Assembly (NCBI RefSeq): GCF_001650195.1
Contig: NZ_LXYR01000022.1
Coordinates: forward strand, 1 to 64,000
Source: Phormidesmis priestleyi BC1401
GTDB lineage: Bacteria > Cyanobacteriota > Cyanobacteriia > Leptolyngbyales > Leptolyngbyaceae
DNA: 64,000 nucleotides
Direction: 5' to 3'
Shown here one piece after another: positions 48,684-60,970 of the stretch. Numbering within the stretch: position 1 is the stretch's first letter; every line of letters starts with the position of its first letter. Below the pieces are notes generated by a model. It worked only from the letters and a program-made list of their open reading frames with translations, did not search any database and was not told the DNA's origin. The position numbers and the translations under genes were made by a program.

Positions 48684-49727
48684 TCAGGCAGACACAGGTT
48701 CTTTCTCCTGAGCGAGTATCGATTCTTCACCCGATGCTTTGAACTTGAATAGAGCTGGATTGCTTTGGGTTTTTTCCAAAAATCCTCGCTGTACCCCACG
48801 AGTAAGGGTGCCTGCCACACTTTTGATGGCTCTCGGCATCTCGGCTTCCTCAAACTCGCCGTACACCTCGCGAATGATGTCAGCGGTTGAGAACGATTGC
48901 TCTGGATTAGTTGCAGTCACGTTGACCATTGCCTGAAGCGGTTCCATTCCTCGAAACGATCGCTTAGGATTTTTGGCGTTGAAGGATTGAGATTTGGGTT
49001 GTTTCCCCTTTTCCTTGGCTCTGGCTCTGGGTTGAGCTTTAACTTTTGAAGCTTTTCTAGGTGACTTTTCAGATGAATCAGACGGCTCATCGTCATCGGG
49101 TTCTGCTGAAATAGCCTCAGTAGCCTCATCCGATTGGTCACTGGTTGGCGCATCTGCTAGTGACTTTGCGCCCGTCAGCGCTCTAAAGAGGGGTGGATTC
49201 TCCTGCACTCTTTCTAACCATCCCTTCTTCGCTCCCCCCACTAATGTGATTTTCACGCTTCGCTTTGCAGTGGGTAAGTCGGCTGGGTCAAACTCGTCAT
49301 AGACGGTACGAATGACTTCTTCAGCGTCAAACGTCTGCTCTGGAGAGTGGTTGACCACCTGCACCATTGCCTCGATCGGAGTCAGCCCTGCAAACTCAGC
49401 TTTGAGCACTTTGCCATTAAAATGATTGGCGGTTGGTTGCTGACCTTTTCCTTTAGACTTGGTTGACGATTGACCTTTCGGGGTTGAGGTCTTCGATTGA
49501 GCCTTTGATAAATCTGGCTGAGTTTCTAGATCTAACAGGTAATTGCCGGAACCATTGTTCTCTGATTCATCTCCTAACAGCAAATCTAGCTGTTGCAGTG
49601 CGCGATCGATTGCGGCGGTTGCTTGCTCAACTGCCGATTGAATAATGGCATCTCGATCGCTTTTGAGTCGAGATCGCTCTTGTTCTAACTGTTGCTTTAC
49701 TTCGCTACTCAAAATGGAGTATGACAT
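48684..49727 (-). CDS. Hypothetical DNA-binding-like protein with two repeated domains
   Basis: 347 residues from ATG 49727. A helical N-terminus (1-50) is followed by two copies of a ~75-residue unit (about 105-185 and 260-335). Each reads F-x-G-x-x-P-x-x-A-M-V-x-V and P-E-Q-x-F-x-x-x-x-(V/I)-I-R-x-V-Y-x-E-F, then L-x-x-G-x-x-x-G-x-L-E and N-P-x-L-F. The units look like winged helices of the HARE-HTH sort (inference). The linkers are long and Lys/Arg/Ser-rich (K-G-K-G-Q-Q, R-A-R-A-K-E-K-G-K). Plausibly nucleoid-associated; not a named family to me. Confidence 0.75.
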   Translation of the reverse strand: MSYSILSSEVKQQLEQERSRLKSDRDAIIQSAVEQATAAIDRALQQLDLLLGDESENNGSGNYLLDLETQPDLSKAQSKTSTPKGQSSTKSKGKGQQPTANHFNGKVLKAEFAGLTPIEAMVQVVNHSPEQTFDAEEVIRTVYDEFDPADLPTAKRSVKITLVGGAKKGWLERVQENPPLFRALTGAKSLADAPTSDQSDEATEAISAEPDDDEPSDSSEKSPRKASKVKAQPRARAKEKGKQPKSQSFNAKNPKRSFRGMEPLQAMVNVTATNPEQSFSTADIIREVYGEFEEAEMPRAIKSVAGTLTRGVQRGFLEKTQSNPALFKFKASGEESILAQEKEPVSA

Positions 49728-50043
49728 TGCTTCTCTTTGCCTCATCACAGATGGTTGTACCTCGATTGTAGATTGGATAATTGAATTGGAAATTTAAAGT
49801 TCAAGAGATTGCGTCTAATAGTTGGTTCCTATGACAAAGTGAGCCTCTCTGCTCACATCAGTTGATAGCGTACACTGAAGCCCAGCCCTGTAGCAGATGA
49901 GCATTACACTACTCTTACTAAGCATCACTGCTCTAACTCAAAATCTCACGCCTCTAGCACGATTCGATTAGCCCAACTTTCAGTTTGGTGCGAGGCAGAA
50001 CCGCAGCAGAGGAAAGCTTTGTACTTCTCAAACTGTCTCTAAA
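49728..50043. other. Intergenic region before the creatininase remnant
   Basis: Contains the divergent promoters. 49985-50025 (GCGAGGCAGAACCGCAGCAG) resembles the inner part of the family C repeat at 11250-11275, so a decayed third copy is possible. Confidence 0.35.
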
Positions 50044-50817
50044 GTGCTGAACAAATCCTCTAACTCAACGCGACTTGTGCCCTCTAAACCGGTCCTCTGG
50101 GAAGAACTAACGTGGGAGCAGATTACGCAACTGCGCGATCGAGGCGTTGATTTAATGATTTTGCCGATTGGGGCGACAGAACAACACGCCCTGCATATCT
50201 GTAGGGGTCGATACGTTTTCGGCAACAGCCGTTGCTCGTTGGCTCAATCAAAGAAGTGGGCAGGCACTATTTCTCTCAGATCTCAAACGTTGGCTGCAAT
50301 TATTGTAGAAATCGCAGAATGGGTAGCGAGTGCCGGATTTTCTCGATTGCTGCTCAATGGGCACGCTACCAACTGGGCACCCTTGCGCTGTGGTTTAGAA
50401 AACGTTCGTCATCGCTATCCTGAGTTGCGAACTGCGCTGCGGTTCCTTCGGAGTTGCGCAGAGCGCTAACCGCTGTGGGAAATCTCGCCCAAGATTCACG
50501 AGTTTTATCATCACGATGCCGTCAACTTTCACGCTAATTGTGCAGAAACTTCAGTAATGTTGGCACTGCGACCCGATCTAGTACAAATGAATCGAGCCGT
50601 AGATGAACCAGATCGATCGGCACATTGTTTCTTTGCTTACAGAGTGGATAAAGAAAGCGTTCATAGCGGTGTTGGAACTCCCAGTCAGGCAGATGAAGCA
50701 TTTGGACAAGCGACTTTAGCAGCTTGTATTACAGAATTGAGTGCCCAACTTCAACAGGCAATGATTGAGAAAACACCGTTAGAAGAATTACCACCAGCGT
50801 TACCAGATATGTTTTAA
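50044..50817 (+). pseudogene. Creatininase family protein, multiply disrupted
   Basis: Recognisable creatininase pieces lie in order: L-W-E-E-L-T-W-E-Q-I and I-L-P-I-G-A-T-E-Q-H, then in another frame V-D-T-F-S-A-T-A-V-A-R-W. Back in frame come G-T-I-S-L-R-S-Q-T-L, L-L-L-N-G-H-A-T-N-W-A-P and, after a stop, F-Y-H-H-D-A-V-N-F-H-A-N-C-A-E-T-S-V-M. So there is a frameshift near 50200, a deletion after A-R-W, and a 31-bp repeat (50439-50469) that brings in TAA 50467-50469. Downstream of the stop the original frame continues. Metal ligands are partly lost. Precedes the glutamine synthetase-like gene by 29 bases and was probably co-transcribed with it. Confidence 0.85.
50439..50469 (+). repeat. 31-bp dispersed element, family D, copy 1 (inside creatininase gene)
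   Basis: GCGGTTCCTTCGGAGTTGCG with C-A-G-A-G-C-G-C-T-A-A after it. Inverse copy at 58243-58273. The two match at all but the central three bases, which read AGA here and TCT there, i.e. the GCGC-NNN-GCGC core is inverted. Its insertion keeps the frame but adds a stop. Confidence 0.75.
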
Positions 50818-50846
50818 TTACCATTAACAAATCTATTCACAAAACA

Positions 50847-52205
50847 ATGAGCCACGAATCTACTTCAGAATTGCAGCAGCTAAAAGCAGCGCTGGAAAAA
50901 CAGGGTGTGAAATACGCGATCGCCAGCTTTGTCGATGTTCATGGGATGTGCAAAGCAAAGATGGTGCCACTGACGCATTTTGACCAAATGATGCAGGGGT
51001 CAGAATTATTCACAGGAGCCGCGTTAGACGGGGTTCCTCAAGCCGTGAATGATGATGAGGTCGCGGCAATGCCCGATCCAGCAAGCGCCACAATTCTGCC
51101 CTGGAATTCAGAAATGGCTTGGTTTGCCAGCGATCTGTATTTGCAGGGCAAACCATTTGAAGCGTGCTGTCGCAGCATTCTCAAGTCGGTTTTGCAGCAA
51201 GCGGCAGAGATGGGCTTTCAGTTCAACCTGGGGATTGAAACAGAGTTTTTTATTCTCAAAGATCAGCCTGGGCAGGCAGTTCCTGTTAGCGATCGTGACA
51301 CGCTAGACAAACCTTGTTATGACCTGCAAGGGCTGCTGGATAACTACACCTGGGTAGATGAAATTGTGCAGGCGATGAATCACCTCGGCTGGGATGTATA
51401 CTCATTTGACCATGAAGATGGCAATGGTCAGTTTGAAACAGATTTTGCCTATGCAGACGCGTTAACGATGTCCGATCGCCTCACGTTTTTTCGCTTAATG
51501 GTGAAAGAAATTGCTCGCAAACATGGTTATTTTGCCACCTTTATGCCAAAGCCGTTTGCCAACCGAACTGGAAGCGGTGCTCACTATAATATGTCGCTGG
51601 CAGATCTGAGGACGGGAGAAAACTTGTTTGTCGATCTTCAAGACGCGCGTCACTGTGGGTTGTCAAAATTAGGCTATCAGTTCATCGCAGGCGTGTTGCG
51701 TCATGCCCCCGCAATTTGTGCGGTGATTGCGCCGACGGTAAATAGCTACAAACGGTTAGTGGCACGGGGCAGCATGTCAGGATTCACTTGGGCACCTGTT
51801 TACATCTGCTACGGCAACAACAACCGAACAAATATGTTACGCATTCCACTGGGGGGCGGACGGGTAGAGTGCCGCGCTGCCGATATTTCAAGCAATCCCT
51901 ACCTGGGTGCTGCAATGATTTTGGCGGCTGGGTTAGAAGGTATTCGCGAAGATCTAGATCCCGGTGAGCCACACACTGAAAATATGTATACGTCCACTTC
52001 GACAGAGCTGACTGAAATGGGAATCAAAACGCTGCCGCGAACCTTGGGGGAAGCGATCGAAGCCTTTGCATTTGATCCATTAAGCAAATCAGTGATGGGA
52101 TCGTTGATGTACAAAACTTATATTGACTTCAAAACACAGGAATGGTTTGAGTATCACAATCATGTATCTGATTGGGAAATCCAGCGCTATCTAAAGTTTT
52201 TCTAA
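50847..52205 (+). CDS. glnT: Type III (GlnT-like) glutamine synthetase family enzyme
   Basis: 452 residues, ATP-dependent gamma-glutamyl ligase fold. Y-A-I-A-S-F-V-D-V-H-G-M-C-K-A-K at the N-terminus, G-I-E-T-E-F-F metal site, D-H-E-D-G-N-G-Q-F-E, F-M-P-K-P-F-A-N-R-T-G-S-G-A-H-Y-N (ATP and His metal ligands), V-N-S-Y-K-R-L and N-N-R-T-N-M-L-R-I-P. Not the housekeeping GlnA, whose adenylylation Tyr region is absent. Relatives are annotated type III glutamate-ammonia ligase or act on amines. Next to an amidase-type remnant and a riboswitch-controlled ABC transporter, so a role in assimilating nitrogen from an imported compound is inferred. Confidence 0.88.
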   Translation: MSHESTSELQQLKAALEKQGVKYAIASFVDVHGMCKAKMVPLTHFDQMMQGSELFTGAALDGVPQAVNDDEVAAMPDPASATILPWNSEMAWFASDLYLQGKPFEACCRSILKSVLQQAAEMGFQFNLGIETEFFILKDQPGQAVPVSDRDTLDKPCYDLQGLLDNYTWVDEIVQAMNHLGWDVYSFDHEDGNGQFETDFAYADALTMSDRLTFFRLMVKEIARKHGYFATFMPKPFANRTGSGAHYNMSLADLRTGENLFVDLQDARHCGLSKLGYQFIAGVLRHAPAICAVIAPTVNSYKRLVARGSMSGFTWAPVYICYGNNNRTNMLRIPLGGGRVECRAADISSNPYLGAAMILAAGLEGIREDLDPGEPHTENMYTSTSTELTEMGIKTLPRTLGEAIEAFAFDPLSKSVMGSLMYKTYIDFKTQEWFEYHNHVSDWEIQRYLKFF

Positions 52206-52276
52206 GAGAGATTCGATAAATTGCCCGCAGTATAACCAACTGGATTAGGACATTGCTGTAAGAATGCCCACCGCTT

Positions 52277-52502
52277 AGACAAGGGCTTAGGGCGTGTTTT
52301 GAACCTCTTTCGCGTCGATTCTGCCTCGCCCTGAACTGAAGTTCAAGCTATCTGGGGAAGGTCCGTTGAAACGAACTCAGGATCTGACTTGACTCGCGTT
52401 CAGTCCGTTTGAACAGACTTCCCACTATCAGCCCGAACTTGAGTTCAGGGCGGGATGGCAACGAAGACCAGAGCTTCAAACTACTGCTTAAGCCCCTTGT
52501 CC
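52277..52502 (-). repeat. MITE-like hairpin repeat, family C, copy 2
   Basis: Outer inverted ends: GACAAGGGCTTAGGGCGTGT and its mirror CTTAAGCCCCTTGTC. Inside, GCCTCGCCCTGAACTGAAGTTC and GAACTTGAGTTCAGGGCGGG pair. It matches the 11197-11292 copy in reverse, with ~110 extra central bases. No gene. Confidence 0.65.
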
Positions 52503-52537
52503 TACCTTGATTAACGATCGCCCATTTTGCTGTGCTA

Positions 52538-52571
52538 GATCCCCGGCTTCTCTAAGAATCGGGGATTTTAA
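52538..52571 (+). terminator. Intrinsic terminator downstream of glnT
   Basis: ATCCCCG / CGGGGAT stem, 14-base loop, then TTTTAAC. It lies after the repeat, about 340 bases past glnT, and just before the convergent permease end. Confidence 0.6.
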
Positions 52572-52587
52572 CAAGAGAACCCAATCT

Positions 52588-53442
52588 TTAATGACGAGTT
52601 TGATCTGCCCAAGGCGTAAGAACTGCCGAAAGCCACTTTAAGCCATAGTCGATCGCCAGCCCGATCACCCCAATCAGCAAAATGCAGAACAATACTTTCT
52701 CAGTTTGTAAGTAACGCTGTGCCTGAATGATTCTGAATCCCAAACCTGATTGAGCAGCCACGAGTTCGGCAATCACTAGATAGTTCCACGCGCCAGAAAT
52801 ATTTACTCGCAGCGTATCCAACACACTGGGGAAAGTTGCCGGAACAATCACCTTAAACAAAACATCTCGCCGAGTTGCCCCTAGCGTATATGCTACATTG
52901 ATCATCTCGCTGGGAATAAATTTAACCGCATCGGCAACCATAATTGCGTTGTACAACACAACACCCAACGTAATGATCAAAACCTTAGATTCTTCGCCCA
53001 ACCCCAGCCAGATCACAATCAACGGCACGAACGCAGTCACAGGCATATATCGCACCGTTCCCACAAATGGCGCGAACAAACTGTTCATGCTGTAAAACGT
53101 GCCCATCGCAATGCCGATCGGCACTCCGATGATCGCTGCGGCTAAGAAACCCGCTAACACTCGACCGCAACTGATAATTACATCGGTCAGCAAATCGTTA
53201 TTGGCAAACATCTCAATTCCAGCTTGCACAACCGCAGTTGGAGTAGGAAGAAACAAGGGCGGCACCATCTTGCCATAGCTGACGATCGCCCACAGCAACA
53301 GCGGAACCGCCAGGGAAACGATGACGATCAACGCTGCCAATCGCCGCGAGAAGCCTTGACGAATGCTCCAGAAGACCGAAGGCTTTAGATAGTGATAGTG
53401 ACGATCGGAAGAGGGAGATGAATCGAGACTCGCATTAGCCAC
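52588..53442 (-). CDS. ABC transporter permease, NitT/TauT (SsuC/TauC/NrtB) type
   Basis: 284 residues with six membrane helices, starting with GTG (AAGGAC upstream). P-L-F-L-P-T-P-T-A-V near the first periplasmic loop, V-P-I-G-I-A-M-G, P-V-T-A-F-V-P-L-I-V-I-W-L-G-L-G-E and the EAA loop Y-T-L-G-A-T-R-R-D-V-L-F-K-V-I-V-P-A are typical. Divergent from its ATPase, 511 bases away. Belongs functionally with the ATPase and the riboswitch-controlled binding protein. Confidence 0.92.
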   Translation of the reverse strand: MANASLDSSPSSDRHYHYLKPSVFWSIRQGFSRRLAALIVIVSLAVPLLLWAIVSYGKMVPPLFLPTPTAVVQAGIEMFANNDLLTDVIISCGRVLAGFLAAAIIGVPIGIAMGTFYSMNSLFAPFVGTVRYMPVTAFVPLIVIWLGLGEESKVLIITLGVVLYNAIMVADAVKFIPSEMINVAYTLGATRRDVLFKVIVPATFPSVLDTLRVNISGAWNYLVIAELVAAQSGLGFRIIQAQRYLQTEKVLFCILLIGVIGLAIDYGLKWLSAVLTPWADQTRH

Positions 53443-53630
53443 TGAGATAGTCCTTTATCAAGTAATACACCGACCTGCCTCAAACCGATTGAGCGGCACC
53501 TCAAAAAGGTAACGTCAACCTTCACTGACATTCCTCAGTTTAGACAGACACTCACGCTTTTTTGTATTGAAGGCTACTCGATCGTCATTTTCAGGCTGAG
53601 TAAAATTAACCTCTTGCGTAAATCTGGACA

Positions 53631-53740
53631 GCCCTCCTCACGAAGTGGGGCAAAGCCCTCGCCAACCCTTCTTCCCAGGGAGAAGGGAGCTAGAATCTCT
53701 GGTTCCTTCTCTTTAGGGAGAGAGGGGCTAGGGTGAGGGC
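53631..53740. repeat. GC-rich dispersed hairpin repeat, family A, copy 5
   Basis: GCCCTCCTCACGAAGTGGGGCAAAGCCCTCG at the left is shared with copy 1, followed by the CTTCTTCCCAGGGAGAAGGG hairpin and GGGGCTAGGGTGAGGGC. The GGCGTTGCTGA ends are absent. Confidence 0.7.
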
Positions 53741-53793
53741 GAAGGATTCGTGCAGGAGGTCTAATCGTAAAATCGTAAATTCTGAAGCTCCAC

Positions 53794-53840
53794 ATCCAGC
53801 AAATTTGTAGCCTCAGACTTTCTCCGTAAATTTGCTGGAT
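53794..53840. promoter_or_regulatory. 13-bp perfect inverted repeat upstream of the ATPase gene
   Basis: ATCCAGCAAATTT (53794-53806) and AAATTTGCTGGAT (53828-53840), 21 bases apart. No T-run follows, so it is not an obvious terminator. It could be a regulator site or a transposon footprint. It sits between two divergent transporter genes. Confidence 0.45.
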
Positions 53841-53953
53841 TTAGGTTGAGCGAAGGACTGTTTCTGTATCCAAATTAACATTTTGAAACGACGCTATCTA
53901 GTTAGCTAGTAGAGAAACTTCGATTTTTGCTGCCTAATCCTGGACGTTCAACT

Positions 53954-54778
53954 ATGCTCGACACTCGATCTCAAGATTTACGGGGGCAACCTGAGAGGGC
54001 GATCGAAGCCAGGCTCGTGCCCATTCCTCCCAAGCTTGAGGTTCGTGGCTTGTCTAAATCGTTTGCAACGCAAGACGGCTCAATGGCGGTGCTAGACGAT
54101 ATCAATATTCAGCTTTTTCCACGAGAATTTGTCTGTCTGGTGGGTTCGTCGGGATGTGGTAAATCTACATTGCTTAACATTGTGGCGGGGTTGGCAAATC
54201 CTTCGTCCGGCAGCGTGTTGGTCGATGGGCGAGCAGTCACAGGTCCCGGCTCCGATCGCGGCATGGTGTTTCAAAACTACACCCTCTATCCGTGGCTGAC
54301 GGTTTCCCAGAACATTGCGTTTGGGTTACAGCTCCGCAAAATGCCCAAATCAGAGCAGCGAGAACGGATTGATTACTACCTAAATGTCGTGGGGTTGACC
54401 CAGTTTGCAAAGTCCTATCCAAAACAACTGTCGGGAGGCATGAAGCAGCGAGTTGCGATCGCTCGTGCTCTAGCCAACGAGCCAGCCGTTTTGTTGATGG
54501 ATGAGCCGTTTGGCGCGTTAGATGCTCAAACCAAAGAGCAAATGCAGCAATTTTTATTAGAACTCTGGGAGCAAACCCACGTAACGGTTTTGATGATCAC
54601 TCACGATGTAGAAGAAGCGATTTATCTGTCGCAGCGAGTCTATGTAATGGGTACGCGTCCAGGGCGAATGAAGTTAGAAGTTCCGGTCGGTCTGCCAGAA
54701 CACCGCAACTTAGACATGAAGCTGTCGCCTGAGTTTGTTGACGTTAAACGGCAGGTTTTGCATTCACTGCGCGAGTAA
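53954..54778 (+). CDS. ABC transporter ATP-binding protein, NitT/TauT (SsuB/NrtD) type
   Basis: 274 residues from ATG 53954 (TTG 53927 is in frame). Walker A G-S-S-G-C-G-K-S-T, Q-loop V-F-Q-N-Y-T-L-Y-P-W-L-T-V, signature L-S-G-G-M-K-Q-R-V, Walker B L-L-M-D-E-P-F-G-A-L-D, H-loop I-T-H-D-V-E-E-A. The Y-P-W-L-T-V loop is typical of the nitrate/sulfonate/taurine branch. About 30 N-terminal residues before the first strand are not conserved. The binding protein gene follows 477 bases later, behind the riboswitch. Confidence 0.92.
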   Translation: MLDTRSQDLRGQPERAIEARLVPIPPKLEVRGLSKSFATQDGSMAVLDDINIQLFPREFVCLVGSSGCGKSTLLNIVAGLANPSSGSVLVDGRAVTGPGSDRGMVFQNYTLYPWLTVSQNIAFGLQLRKMPKSEQRERIDYYLNVVGLTQFAKSYPKQLSGGMKQRVAIARALANEPAVLLMDEPFGALDAQTKEQMQQFLLELWEQTHVTVLMITHDVEEAIYLSQRVYVMGTRPGRMKLEVPVGLPEHRNLDMKLSPEFVDVKRQVLHSLRE

Positions 54779-54965
54779 GACAATCAGGCGTACAGCAGCA
54801 TCACCGATCCTGCAACGTTAGCCCCTAATCGAAAAAGGCAGCTATCAAGAAAGGTTGATTCCTGATGCGGGTGCCCGTTGAAAGCACAATGCCGCCTTGA
54901 ACTGAGTAGGATGTCGCACAAATGTGATTTGCGATACTTCTTTCCTGCGGTCGCGTGTTAAAAAT

Positions 54966-54981
54966 AGTGACATTGATCACA
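54966..54981 (+). promoter_or_regulatory. CRP-like palindrome upstream of the guanidine-I riboswitch
   Basis: AGTGACATTGATCACA: GTGA-N6-TCAC, one base off the CRP/SyCRP1 consensus TGTGA-N6-TCACA. It lies ~70 bases before the riboswitch aptamer, where an activator site for the binding-protein promoter could be. Prediction only. Confidence 0.35.
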
Positions 54982-55029
54982 GCCGCCAGGAGTAGCAAAC
55001 TGCCCCGTTGAAGATCTTGTGCCAGAAAA

Positions 55030-55160
55030 ATTTATCGCTTCTAGGGTTCCGATCGAGCCTCAATCAGAAATGGATGGCTTGATGACTGGTCCGAGAGAAG
55101 CAGGCTGTTTGGCGCAATGCAGACAGTTACACGGCGGGACAAAAGCCCGGGAGAGACGAT
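55030..55160 (+). ncRNA. Guanidine-I (ykkC) riboswitch aptamer
   Basis: All three conserved blocks of the ykkC/guanidine-I class occur in order and spacing: CTAGGGTTCCG (55041-55051), ACTGGTCCGAGAGA (55085-55098) and ACACGGCGGGACAAAAGCCC ending GGGAGA (55130-55154). Between them are variable stems (GCCTC...; GCAGGCTGTTTGGCGC...). The class binds free guanidinium and turns on genes for its export, breakdown or uptake. Here it sits in the 5' leader of a NitT/TauT-type binding protein gene starting at 55256. Confidence 0.93.
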
Positions 55161-55200
55161 TAACAGCGATAAGTCTGTTGCGGCTCTTTCGGGTTTTTTG
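55142..55200 (+). terminator. Riboswitch-controlled intrinsic terminator
   Basis: AAAGCCCGGGAGAG (55142-55155), which is part of the aptamer, can pair over 14 positions (with G-U pairs) with CTCTTTCGGGTTTT (55184-55197), followed by a T-run. A smaller AACAG/CTGTT stem closes the loop. The shared strand means aptamer and terminator exclude each other, which predicts an ON switch. Confidence 0.85.
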
Positions 55201-55255
55201 ATTTCTAAAACCGTATCTTCTGCGATTTGTTTCACGTTCTCAAAGGAATTCTTAG

Positions 55256-56263
55256 ATGTTTAGTTTTCGCTCAATCAAACTGATCGCTCTCGCATTAGTC
55301 GCTCTATTTTGGACGGTTGCCTGTTCTCCTCAATCTGCAAACAATAATGGGACAAATAATTCTGCCCCGTCTCAAGCGCTCAGTGTTGGCACGAACCCTT
55401 GGTCGGGTTATTCGGGTCATCACGTCGCCGTGAAAAAAGGCTTTTACGATCAAGCTGGACTCAAGATTCAAGACACATTGTTTCAGTCCAATACCGAGGA
55501 GATTACAGCATTTCTGTCGGGTAAGCTCGACTTGGCTTGGCTGACAGCAGGAGATGTGATTCAAATGGCAGGAAAAGATCCTAACCTCAAGATCATCTTT
55601 CTGTGCGATTACTCAAACGGCTCAGATGGCATTATCGGACGCGGCATCAAAACAGCAGCCGACCTGAGGGGCAAAACGCTGGCTCGTGAAGATGTGCTGT
55701 TTGAAAAAGTCTTGCTGCGGGCATACCTCGAACAAGGGGGACTGACCGAAAAGGATCTCGCGATCAAAGATCTGCCCGCTCCCGATGCGGCGACGGCATT
55801 TAGCGCTAAACGAGTTGATGCAGCCGTGACTTATGAGCCGTTTCTCACCAAGGCAGCAAAAGAAGGCGGTGGAGAAGTCATTTTTAGCTCGAAAGGAACA
55901 AATTTGATTGCGGATGTTCTGGTGACGCGCCCTAACCTGATCGCCACTCGCAGGGCTGATTTGCTGTCGTTTATCAAAGCAGCCAATCAAGGGATTAAAT
56001 TGCTGAAAGCAGGAGATGCGGATGCGATCGCGGCTGCATCTGGAAAGCTAGGAATTAAACCCGAAGAGCTTCGCGAACAACTCACTGGAATTACGCTTTT
56101 TGATATCGAAGGAAACAAGACGATCGGGTTCAATCCTGAGAATCCTAACAACGCTATGAAGAGTTTTGAATTGGTTGCAAAAGCTGCCTATGATTTCAAA
56201 ACGGTTCAACAGCCGATCGATGCCAAAACGCTATATGATGATTCTCTCGTAAAATCGCTCTAG
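55256..56263 (+). CDS. ABC transporter substrate-binding lipoprotein, NitT/TauT (SsuA-like) type
   Basis: 335 residues. Lipoprotein signal: K-L-I-A-L-A-L-V-A-L-F-W then lipobox T-V-A-C with the lipidated Cys at 23, and an Asn-rich linker. The mature part is a type II periplasmic binding fold: G-T-N-P-W-S-G-Y, H-V-A-V-K-K-G-F-Y-D, L-D-L-A-W-L-T-A-G-D, G-x-T-L-A-R-E-D-V and V-D-A-A-V-T-Y-E-P-F. AAAGGA precedes the ATG. The guanidine-I riboswitch in its leader predicts control by guanidinium; the ligand may be guanidine or a related compound, which sequence cannot settle. Confidence 0.92.
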   Translation: MFSFRSIKLIALALVALFWTVACSPQSANNNGTNNSAPSQALSVGTNPWSGYSGHHVAVKKGFYDQAGLKIQDTLFQSNTEEITAFLSGKLDLAWLTAGDVIQMAGKDPNLKIIFLCDYSNGSDGIIGRGIKTAADLRGKTLAREDVLFEKVLLRAYLEQGGLTEKDLAIKDLPAPDAATAFSAKRVDAAVTYEPFLTKAAKEGGGEVIFSSKGTNLIADVLVTRPNLIATRRADLLSFIKAANQGIKLLKAGDADAIAAASGKLGIKPEELREQLTGITLFDIEGNKTIGFNPENPNNAMKSFELVAKAAYDFKTVQQPIDAKTLYDDSLVKSL

Positions 56264-56270
56264 CACTCGC

Positions 56271-56310
56271 GTTATTTGAGGGTGGAGATCAAATTCTTCA
56301 CTCTCGAATA
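56271..56310. terminator. Hairpin terminator after the binding protein gene
   Basis: TTATTTGAGGGTG and CACTCTCGAATAA form a 13-position stem with two mismatches and a 13-base loop. AT-rich flanks suggest it can act in both directions. It overlaps the end of the MBL-fold remnant. Confidence 0.5.
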
Positions 56311-56710
56311 ATTGAATCAGGAAGCATGAATGGTAATGTCTCAACTCTGCGGATGGATTGCGGAAAAACCACTTTTAACGCAGCTTCATCTGAAGGACAA
56401 CCTGGTTTTCTTCTCGCCTCTAGATATTCGATGATAAGTTGCTGACAGTGGTCTTTACCAAAGGTTTGATAATGCCCCGGATACACCGTTTGAATGAGAA
56501 GATTTTGCAAGTGTTCACAACTGGCAACGTAAGCGGAAATATGACTGCGATCAAGCTCACCTAACAAATCGCTATCATAAATCACGTCGCCAAAAAACAA
56601 TTCATCACACTACAGATCATACAATCCAATACATCCAAGCAATGCCCTGGTAAATGCAAAACTGCAACCGCCCGATCGCCCAAATCTAACACACCGCAGT
56701 TGGTTCACTA
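56298..56710 (-). pseudogene. MBL-fold metallohydrolase remnant
   Basis: Only the second half of a metallo-beta-lactamase-fold enzyme is present, in two frames. First V-A-V-L-H-L-P-G-H-C (metal His), then after a shift F-F-G-D-V-I-Y-D (metal Asp) and V-Y-P-G-H-Y. The open part is 56298-56600 (100 codons). The 5' half, with the HxHxDH motif, is missing: upstream is a fragment of the methyltransferase tail. Confidence 0.65.
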
Positions 56711-58213: not shown

Positions 58214-60970
58214 TTATTGTGTGGGTGCCCAAGGTCCCACGATTAGCGCAGAGCGCAACTCCGAAGGAACCGCCTCTCCTCGCTTTTCTTTTTCTGCTAA
58301 CTCTAAGTTTAACGTCAGCAGTTTTTCGAGTAAATCATCGTCTGGTTTGAAGCCGTAAGCTTGAAGGACGATCGCGTCGAGTTTGGCGTGGAGTTTGTAG
58401 AGTTGGCTGGTCGGCTCGTGGAAGTATGCGTTGTAGAGTTTGGTGATGCCCCACTGTTTGCGTTCCATTTGGGTGGAGCGGTAGTCGTGGAGTTCTTGAG
58501 CGGTGGCGCGGATAGCGGCGATGAGGTTGGGGGCTGGGGTTTGGGGAAAGGGGAAGGTCTCAAAGCAGGTGTTGTGAGTGTAGCGAGTATCGCCTTTCAG
58601 CGTAGAACTTTGTGCTTTTACCCAGGTTCGATGAACGTTTGAGGTGAGAATGCCAAGAATGTAGAAGTCCTCTGAAGCAACAACGTTTGTTGAATTGTTT
58701 GCAAGCCAATCTTTTGAAGCTGGTAGAGGAATAAACCATTTAGAGTGAGAAGGCATATTGAAATACTGAGGTAGAGGAGCCAGTGCTTTTCTCATTGCTG
58801 CATTTGTACGCTTAAATCTCCACCATTTTTCACGCATGACCGCTTCACGGTTCTTTTCTCTTTCCGGCTTTACAGAGTCTCTAACGTGTCTAAAAGGAAG
58901 AACATAATCACTTACTTCCTCAATACTCATATCCTGAAAATCAATGATCCAACGACTAGGTTTCCCGTTAGGGTTATCTGTTAAATCTCTAGCAGAGGAG
59001 GATAATTTAAGAACATCTTGATTCTTTGGATCAGCTTTAAGCCATTCCTTTACTTGCTGTTCAGCTAAATAAAATCCCTTACCGACAGGAATCACACCCT
59101 GAAAGCATTGGTTGAGATTGGCTTTGAGGCGAACCGCTTGGGAAACATCAGTAATGGCTCGAAGTGAGGAACTAATCCGTGTAACTTCTACCTGATCGAG
59201 AAAGTATTGCTTCGGTTCTTCTCGGCTCCAATTGGCAATACTGACGTGAACCTTTGCTTCACCTGACCATACTTGAGTAGAAACAGCATCATGGATGTAG
59301 CCATTGTTTTGTGTGATGTAATCTAGTGCAGCAGTCCGGCTTTTTCCTTGACTAATTGAGTTCGTACCAACCAATCCCGCTCGACCTTTCTCACCAATTT
59401 GAGCGTGAGCTAACCGAAACCAGTAGGCACAGAAATCAACGGAATCTTTGACATCGGGAAAGCGCTTAAACACGCGATCGATGTAGTCATCACCAAGATC
59501 GATCCGCATATTTTTCCCACCCAAAAACGGTGGATTACCGATAATCGCATCTGCCTTTACCCACTCCGTAAACAGCGCATCCTTACAAACAATATTTTCA
59601 TCCAGCGTATCCAACGGCAAAGCAGGCTGATCATGAATATCGCAAAGGTCGATCGCCACCTTACGAGCAATCATCAGCGTCACTCGCGCCAACTCCACCG
59701 CAAACTCATTGGTGTCCATCCCATAAAACTGCTGCGGCGTGACAAAGCCAATGCTCATCTGTCCCTGTCCACTTTCCGACTTGCGACGGGCATCAATCTT
59801 GTCTTGCAGCACTCGCTCCAGCCGTTTTAGCTCTAGATACGCCATATACAAAAAATTCCCCGACCCACACGCCGGGTCAAGCACCTTATAGTTGCGCATC
59901 TCCGCCTGCAACGCATAAAGCTCCGCCAAAATAGTCGCGTTGGCGATCTTCTCTTCCCAATAGCGCGTGATCGTCGGGCGAACAATCTTGAGAATATCCT
60001 CCTCCGAGGTGAAATGAATGCCGTGGGCATGGCGTTCGGTGCTGTTGCTTTTGCCGATCGCCGACTCAAAGATGTTGCCAAAAATCGACGGACGCACCGC
60101 TTTCCAATCCTGCGAGGCGGCGGCTTCCAACAGTTCCAATTCTTTCTCAGTTAGCTCTAGCGGATGCACCTCTCGAAACAAGCCGCCGTTAAAATAGTCC
60201 ACGCCCTGATAGCGCCCTGCCGGAGCAATGCCCGATCGATTCATCTCCTGAAACAAGTTTCCTAAAATATCGTAGGTGTTCGAGGGTTTGCCCTGTCGCG
60301 ATCGTGCCTGACACTCGCGCACCAAGCTAATAAACAGATCCTCTGGCAACAATTTTCGATCTTCCGCAAACATCGCCAATACGCATTGCAGCACAAACCG
60401 CTGGGCAGTCTTCGGGTCAACCGCATCCCGCTTCCGTTGGATCAGCATCGTCAGCAATTCACCCATGCGTCCCGCCGCTTTCTCGGTCACCGACACCAGA
60501 TTGTTGTTAAAAACAGGCACACGATCCAACTCTGGATTCATAAACGTGAACGCCCCCACACGATCGGGCAGGCGCTCTAGAGAAACCTTCTCGATCGGCT
60601 CCTCAGACTGTTTCCGAAAGTCGTAGATCCAAAACTCATCAAAGTTGCACAGCATCACATAGCTAGGGCACTGCAACTGCATCCAATAGGTGACGGCTTG
60701 TGCGTAGTGCTTACTGAGGTCTTCGCCCCGCTTCTTCATCTCAATTAGCAAATGCGGCTTCCAGGCAAGATCGGCAAAGCCCGTATTGCCTTTTTTGCTG
60801 CCCTTTTTCACCCGTTGCTCTAGCGTTGCCCCGGCTTCTTGCACACCCTCATGTCCAAACGCCTGAAAAAAGCGATCGAGAAAGTTCTGCGACTCGCCTT
60901 TCTCATCTCCTTTGAGATGCTGCTGGCAATAGCGGACAAATTTCTGGAGACTTTCGGGTGTAGGGGACAT
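58214..60970 (-). CDS. Type IIG-like restriction-methyltransferase (N6-adenine, MmeI-like layout)
   Basis: 918 residues. The N-terminal nuclease-like region has F-A-D-L-A-W-K-P-H-L-L-I-E-M-K-K-R-G (about 66-83), a D...E-x-K site. A helical linker follows, then an adenine methyltransferase with motif I V-L-D-P-A-C-G-S-G-N-F (~365) and motif IV I-G-N-P-P-F (~482). The C-terminal third is probably target recognition. Cuts and methylates with one polypeptide in related enzymes. Near the C-terminus ~10 residues (A-V-P-S-E-L-R-S-A-L) come from the 31-bp repeat; tail copies downstream lack them. It is the anchor of the defence island. Confidence 0.9.
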   Translation of the reverse strand: MSPTPESLQKFVRYCQQHLKGDEKGESQNFLDRFFQAFGHEGVQEAGATLEQRVKKGSKKGNTGFADLAWKPHLLIEMKKRGEDLSKHYAQAVTYWMQLQCPSYVMLCNFDEFWIYDFRKQSEEPIEKVSLERLPDRVGAFTFMNPELDRVPVFNNNLVSVTEKAAGRMGELLTMLIQRKRDAVDPKTAQRFVLQCVLAMFAEDRKLLPEDLFISLVRECQARSRQGKPSNTYDILGNLFQEMNRSGIAPAGRYQGVDYFNGGLFREVHPLELTEKELELLEAAASQDWKAVRPSIFGNIFESAIGKSNSTERHAHGIHFTSEEDILKIVRPTITRYWEEKIANATILAELYALQAEMRNYKVLDPACGSGNFLYMAYLELKRLERVLQDKIDARRKSESGQGQMSIGFVTPQQFYGMDTNEFAVELARVTLMIARKVAIDLCDIHDQPALPLDTLDENIVCKDALFTEWVKADAIIGNPPFLGGKNMRIDLGDDYIDRVFKRFPDVKDSVDFCAYWFRLAHAQIGEKGRAGLVGTNSISQGKSRTAALDYITQNNGYIHDAVSTQVWSGEAKVHVSIANWSREEPKQYFLDQVEVTRISSSLRAITDVSQAVRLKANLNQCFQGVIPVGKGFYLAEQQVKEWLKADPKNQDVLKLSSSARDLTDNPNGKPSRWIIDFQDMSIEEVSDYVLPFRHVRDSVKPEREKNREAVMREKWWRFKRTNAAMRKALAPLPQYFNMPSHSKWFIPLPASKDWLANNSTNVVASEDFYILGILTSNVHRTWVKAQSSTLKGDTRYTHNTCFETFPFPQTPAPNLIAAIRATAQELHDYRSTQMERKQWGITKLYNAYFHEPTSQLYKLHAKLDAIVLQAYGFKPDDDLLEKLLTLNLELAEKEKRGEAVPSELRSALIVGPWAPTQ
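58243..58273 (-). repeat. 31-bp dispersed element, family D, copy 2 (inside methyltransferase gene)
   Basis: On the minus strand GCGGTTCCTTCGGAGTTGCG, then CTCTGCGCTAA. Read in frame as A-V-P-S-E-L-R-S-A-L. Same element as 50439-50469, with the central triplet inverted. Here it does not disrupt the frame. Confidence 0.75.

Follow-up and report, generated by a model that had tools for sequence, protein, structure and literature searches.

The window analysed here is a 64,000-nucleotide stretch of the genome of Phormidesmis priestleyi BC1401. The features that concern this work lie between positions 50044 and 56692, where the genes of an ABC importer adjoin a riboswitch leader.

50044-50817, + strand: creatininase-family gene, interrupted at the short repeat CCTTCGGAGTTGCGC (50445)
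50847-52205, + strand: type III glutamine-synthetase-like (GS-III) ligase (TIGR03105, 596 bits vs 469.6)
52588-53442, - strand: importer ABC transporter permease (BPD_transp_1), divergent from the ATPase
53537-53577, - strand: NtcA-type promoter of the permease, GTATTGAAGGCTAC (53564-53577), 21 nt, TAAACT (53537-53542)
53927-54778, + strand: importer ABC transporter ATPase (ABC_tran), with a TTG start or an ATG at 53954
54924-54965, + strand: candidate promoter of the riboswitch and binding-protein transcript, degenerate NtcA-like GTGATTTGCGATAC, 21 nt, TAAAAAT
55030-55155, + strand: guanidine-I (ykkC subtype 1) riboswitch aptamer (RF00442, 82 bits, E 4.6e-13)
55142-55199, + strand: intrinsic terminator/expression platform, its 5' arm being the aptamer 3' strand CCCGGGAGAG, with a T6 end
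55256-56263, + strand: NitT/TauT (NMT1/SsuA-like) substrate-binding lipoprotein (SBP; Pfam NMT1_2/NMT1, NCBIfam SsuA_fam)
56298-56692, - strand: broken remnant of a metallo-beta-lactamase-fold gene, the next sequence downstream of the SBP

The original prediction had read a guanidine-I riboswitch at 55030-55200, with three conserved ykkC blocks in order, and had proposed an Infernal search with the Rfam ykkC model. When the whole window was scanned (cmscan), RF00442 was the sole RNA family above threshold, scoring 82.0 bits (gathering threshold 63) and aligning over its full length (model positions 1-107). All three blocks (CUAGGGUUCCG, CUGGUCCGAGAG and ACACGG...GGGACAAAAGCCCGGGAGA) are present and intact, and the prediction stands on both counts. 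A permissive Rfam search of 49700-55260 returned no family besides RF00442 at E 1, which argues against a competing ykkC-like class there; nor did the intergenic region between permease and ATPase yield a second guanidine switch at E 1. The aptamer precedes the orthologous SBP gene in all five close relatives. Judged by its sequence, the window element is a genuine guanidine-I switch, which would bind guanidinium.

The original prediction ended at the aptamer; behind it lies the terminator. In its stem, CCCGGGAGAG (55146-55155) is paired with CTCTTTCGGG (55184-55193), followed by six Ts. When 55036-55205 of the leader is folded, the lowest-energy structure is this terminator (z -2.71), and its stem and T-run are common to all five orthologous leaders. 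The sharing of the aptamer 3' strand is an ON-switch layout, found here and in the five relatives, and guanidine-I riboswitches with such terminator anatomy are known ON switches (PMC12186494). We infer both the ligand of the switch, guanidinium, and the direction of its regulation. Further upstream, a degenerate GT-N10-AC box with 21-base spacing to TANAANT recurs in 6/6 orthologous regions, and this pattern makes 54924-54965 a candidate promoter for the transcript that carries riboswitch and SBP. The window switch has no exact NtcA box immediately before it, just the degenerate one.

A NitT/TauT-type binding lipoprotein had been predicted directly behind the switch, and the next same-strand gene (55256-56263) does match NMT1_2/NMT1. 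It is the sole full-length gene behind the switch, and its product begins with a signal peptide and a lipobox-like FWTVAC. The SsuA_fam subfamily model matches it below the curated cut-off, and TIGR03427 (putative urea/guanidine SBP) gives only 76 bits against a cut-off of 333.9. Identity to the SBPs of canonical guanidine operons is 24-29% among the matches listed. For the tree, the canonical clade was defined as the SBPs placed behind a switch and gdmH; Sll1080 by name is absent from it. The window SBP sits outside that clade in one of its own (support 100/100), and the nearest outside rows are switchless SBPs, although the wider join is weak (81/61). Phylogeny thus places the window SBP in a lineage separate from that of the canonical guanidine importer, a point that the original prediction missed. 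In the BC1401 genome it is the only match to either SBP lineage besides a 29% hit in another protein, and a search for a canonical guanidine SBP elsewhere in that genome found none. A structure prediction of the SBP (pLDDT 60, pTM 0.50) was too poor for use.

The permease and the ATPase adjoin the SBP gene, and the three together have the make-up of a NitT/TauT-type importer: an NMT1/SsuA-like SBP, a BPD_transp_1 permease and an NrtD/SsuB-type ATPase. The best NCBIfam relatives of the ATPase are of the SaoA/NtrCD/taurine type, all under cut-off. Neither gene lies behind the switch, the permease being on the minus strand and the ATPase upstream, so that the canonical arrangement of SBP, permease and ATPase behind one switch is absent from the window. 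This position outside switch control was not picked up in the original prediction. The ATPase gene ends 251 bases before the aptamer, so its transcript might extend into the leader. The permease promoter consists of an exact GTAN8TAC followed about 21 bases on by TAN3T, in 6/6 orthologous regions. From the placement of the two pump genes and this conserved promoter we infer split control, in which the membrane core is made according to nitrogen status and the specificity subunit in response to guanidine. A single cyanobacterium may, then, let the substrate gate one importer subunit and nitrogen status a different one.

A protein search located six loci with SBP relatives in named genomes. In five close relatives (SBP 81-88% identical) the layout is GS-III, permease (-), ATPase (+), switch and SBP; the divergent permease/ATPase arrangement is seen in L008-L012. 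At L009 (Leptolyngbya sp. Prado105) the row is switch-SBP-UAAP1-UAAP2-carboxylase, and in genome G027 ATPase, SBP and permease stand in a run behind a single switch. Beside the transporter of L013, the 56% relative, there is no switch, and a metallo-beta-lactamase-fold gene stands among the transporter genes. The carboxylase is encoded in each of the six genomes to which the SBP relatives led, and each holds one or two guanidine-I switches above cut-off; in the loci read, these switches precede UAAP1/UAAP2 or the SBP, and by coordinates the second match in G386 adjoins its carboxylase. An intact relative of the remnant at 56298-56692 is found between the ATPase and the permease of L013. A fatty-acid-desaturase-family gene recurs near transporter relatives with or without a switch (L013 4840-5817, L144 12284-13366, L116 and L148).

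The degradation enzyme had been expected to lie outside the window or be missing, and it was found outside. A second RF00442 match (94.9 bits) lies at 1381-1487 of contig C36 in the BC1401 genome, which measures 5.55 Mb at 99.99% completeness. UAAP1 and UAAP2 follow it immediately, and after them comes a TIGR02712 carboxylase of 1210 residues. The DFTGD motif of this enzyme holds an Asp that aligns with an Asn of the yeast urea enzyme 3va7, and every full-length cyanobacterial carboxylase in the survey, six in number, shares that Asp. It is probably the published specificity residue, an identification based partly on the yeast residue numbering. Asp is characteristic of guanidine carboxylases and Asn of urea carboxylases (PMC12186494). 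Contig C36 thus holds the set of a guanidine carboxylase pathway, namely UAAP1, UAAP2 and a carboxylase with the active-site Asp. The genome-wide search for guanidine hydrolase that had also been proposed came back without a close GdmH homolog, the best match being a 31% partial ureohydrolase, and a search for an SMR/Gdx exporter found none. With neither a close GdmH nor an SMR exporter, the system likely serves to import guanidine and carboxylate it for nitrogen. A search of the same genome for a complete allophanate hydrolase found none; among the candidates, the best-scoring hit reads as GatA-like and a pair on contig C1 as AtzE and an AH_C-domain protein. On that contig, the stretch L019 8827-16444 clusters the AtzE-family amidase, the separate allophanate-hydrolase C-terminal domain protein, a BiuH biuret hydrolase and a carbon-nitrogen hydrolase.

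Importers proved to be common targets of this switch class. Of 386 genomes from the phylum, 121 carry RF00442, and 60 switch loci (L051-L110), mostly from the same taxonomic class, were surveyed, with genes grouped by sequence and named from the group and the representative sequences read, not by per-gene family search. Most loci read gdmH-hypA-hypB-SBP-permease-ATPase; the remainder have UAAP1-UAAP2-carboxylase, SBP-permease-ATPase alone, or both. At L084, L061, L070 and L086 the switch precedes a gene group whose representative (L070) reads as sodium:solute-symporter-like. ABC uptake genes can therefore not be counted among the unusual targets, since most surveyed switches have SBP, permease and ATPase within the gene run they control and such targets are already described (PMC12186494, PMC8390497, PMC10119275). 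In canonical runs all three transporter genes lie behind the switch, whereas in the window the SBP does so alone. The pairing of switch and importer is well known; what is unusual here is the SBP lineage and an SBP switched apart from the other pump genes.

The survey also bears on nitrogen control. An exact GTAN8TAC occurs within 300 bases upstream of 38/60 switches, as against 3/120 upstream regions of other genes at the same loci and about 4/59 expected from shuffled upstream regions. The enrichment over control genes (Fisher p 6e-20) is overstated in strength, because the loci are related. A literature search found no paper joining NtcA with the guanidine-I switch (a 2025 PNAS paper on cyanobacterial guanidine assimilation lay outside this search). 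These data suggest that cyanobacteria in general place their use of guanidine under combined control by NtcA and guanidine.

The GS-III gene converges on the permease and encodes a full-length TIGR03105 member. TIGR03105 genes occur in 24/386 genomes, and the window protein belongs to a clade of 12 (support 100/99). In the sampled genomes this clade was found only beside guanidine-I switches: by coordinates, all seven sampled members (G000, G170, G175, G270, G304, G314 and G342) lie within about 3 kb of one. The other five were reached through the SBP and are therefore not independent evidence for the linkage. At L085, L093 and L103 the GS-III gene is inside the switch-gdmH run; G304, G314 and G175 were placed in such a run by coordinates and kinship only. 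The amine pocket of RhGmaS is lined by Gln175 and Asn188 (PMC7948447), which, mapped by motif, correspond to Ser186/Asp199 in 12/12 clade members and are Gln/Asn in 21/21 other GS-III sequences. The catalytic Asp177/Glu186 are kept as Asp188/Glu197, so the ligase has the catalytic pair of GmaS and a different pocket. The switch-only neighbourhood, the members in guanidinase runs, the extra carboxylate of Asp199 and the smaller Ser186 are the grounds for imagining a clade dedicated to guanidine metabolism that ligates glutamate to guanidine or a guanidine-derived amine, a speculation that we think doubtful. We know of no report of glutamate ligation to guanidine as a guanidine-assimilating reaction, and the clade stands out as one that may add a new enzyme to guanidine metabolism, and one simple to assay. 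The creatininase-family gene precedes GS-III in the window and at L011 with the same break in both, and a reverse-complement copy of CCTTCGGAGTTGCGC lies at 58253.

We consider it probable that the window SBP is the guanidine-gated subunit of an ABC importer that brings guanidine in as a nitrogen source. When guanidine is absent, the leader would fold into the terminator at 55142-55199 and transcription would halt before the SBP gene; with intracellular guanidinium, the aptamer would retain its own 3' strand, the terminator would be blocked and the lipoprotein would be made. Nitrogen status would provide the permease/ATPase core and guanidine the SBP. Imported guanidine would be carboxylated by the C36 carboxylase and then deiminated by UAAP1/UAAP2 (carboxyguanidine deiminase), in an operon with its own guanidine-I switch. 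This model draws on the RF00442 match and the overlapping terminator conserved in five relatives, on the switch before the same SBP in 5/5 close orthologs and before ATPase-SBP-permease in G027, and on the runs at L009 and C36 that join switch, UAAP1, UAAP2 and carboxylase, the former including the SBP. It draws further on the Asp of the C36 carboxylase and the carboxylase in all six SBP-relative genomes, on the lack of another SBP of either lineage, an SMR exporter or a close GdmH, and on the NtcA-type permease promoter in 6/6 regions. Against it stand the separate clade of the SBP, with its low identity to canonical proteins and 76 of 333.9 bits for TIGR03427, and the allophanate hydrolase not found in full. 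The original prediction that the transporter takes up guanidine or a guanidino compound is supported, guanidine being the best reading of a substrate that we deduce from context.

Other substrates were weighed on the same evidence. The importer might carry another guanidino compound, such as methylguanidine or a creatinine-like molecule, from which guanidine is set free within the cell, with the switch reporting the product. An SBP lineage unlike the canonical guanidine SBPs would suit this, as would the neighbouring GS-III, whose nearest PDB relative is the glutamate--methylamine ligase 9qur, the creatininase-family gene before it in the window and L011, and the use of methylguanidine under a guanidine switch in Vreelandella (PMC12508155). 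However, no demethylase was identified beside the importer, the creatininase gene is interrupted in both copies, and the L009 SBP gene runs straight into the plain guanidine pathway; we regard this substrate as rather unlikely. The switchless L013, with its metallo-beta-lactamase-fold gene, suggests that the older SBP lineage may carry another substrate. Transport of an unrelated anion (sulfonate, nitrate, taurine or bicarbonate), with guanidine merely signalling nitrogen or stress state, takes its appeal from the family likeness to SsuA/TauA/NrtA-type proteins and from the switchless transporter relatives, but fits poorly with the carboxylase pathway in the L009 operon, the carboxylase in the genomes of all six relatives and a BC1401 genome that has no other SBP of such kind for guanidine, and we judge it quite improbable.

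That the RNA itself is a degraded or re-specified ykkC-like element which has lost its guanidine response is hardly credible. One loop is longer than consensus (18 nt vs 3 nt in the printed alignment) and the window copy scores 82 bits, below the 94.9 bits of the C36 copy, but every conserved aptamer block matches, no rival Rfam family appears to E 1, and aptamer and terminator are retained in five relatives.

The GS-III ligase shares full-length TIGR03105 membership with GmaS and the type III glutamate ligases (PMC7948447; PDB 9qur, 7cql), and differs in the Ser186/Asp199 pocket of all 12 clade members and in the link of its clade to guanidine-I switches. In Raoultella/Klebsiella, guanidine-I precedes the importer and deiminase and guanidine-II the carboxylase (PMC12186494). 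Those carboxylase operons have ABC import, UAAP1/UAAP2 and carboxylase in common with BC1401, as well as switches split between transport and degradation; BC1401 differs in that both of its switches are guanidine-I, each on its own contig, that the search of its genome turned up no full allophanate hydrolase, and that its SBP is not of the TIGR03427 type. With the Synechocystis operon gdmH-hypA-hypB-sll1080-1081-1082 (PMC8390497, PMC12186494) the window shares the guanidine-I switch, NitT/TauT-type SBP, permease and ATPase, and the setting of cyanobacterial nitrogen use. In contrast to that operon, the window gene run contains no guanidinase, the permease is divergent, and the SBP, of another lineage, stands alone behind the switch, which suggests that a second, unrelated SBP lineage came under guanidine control.
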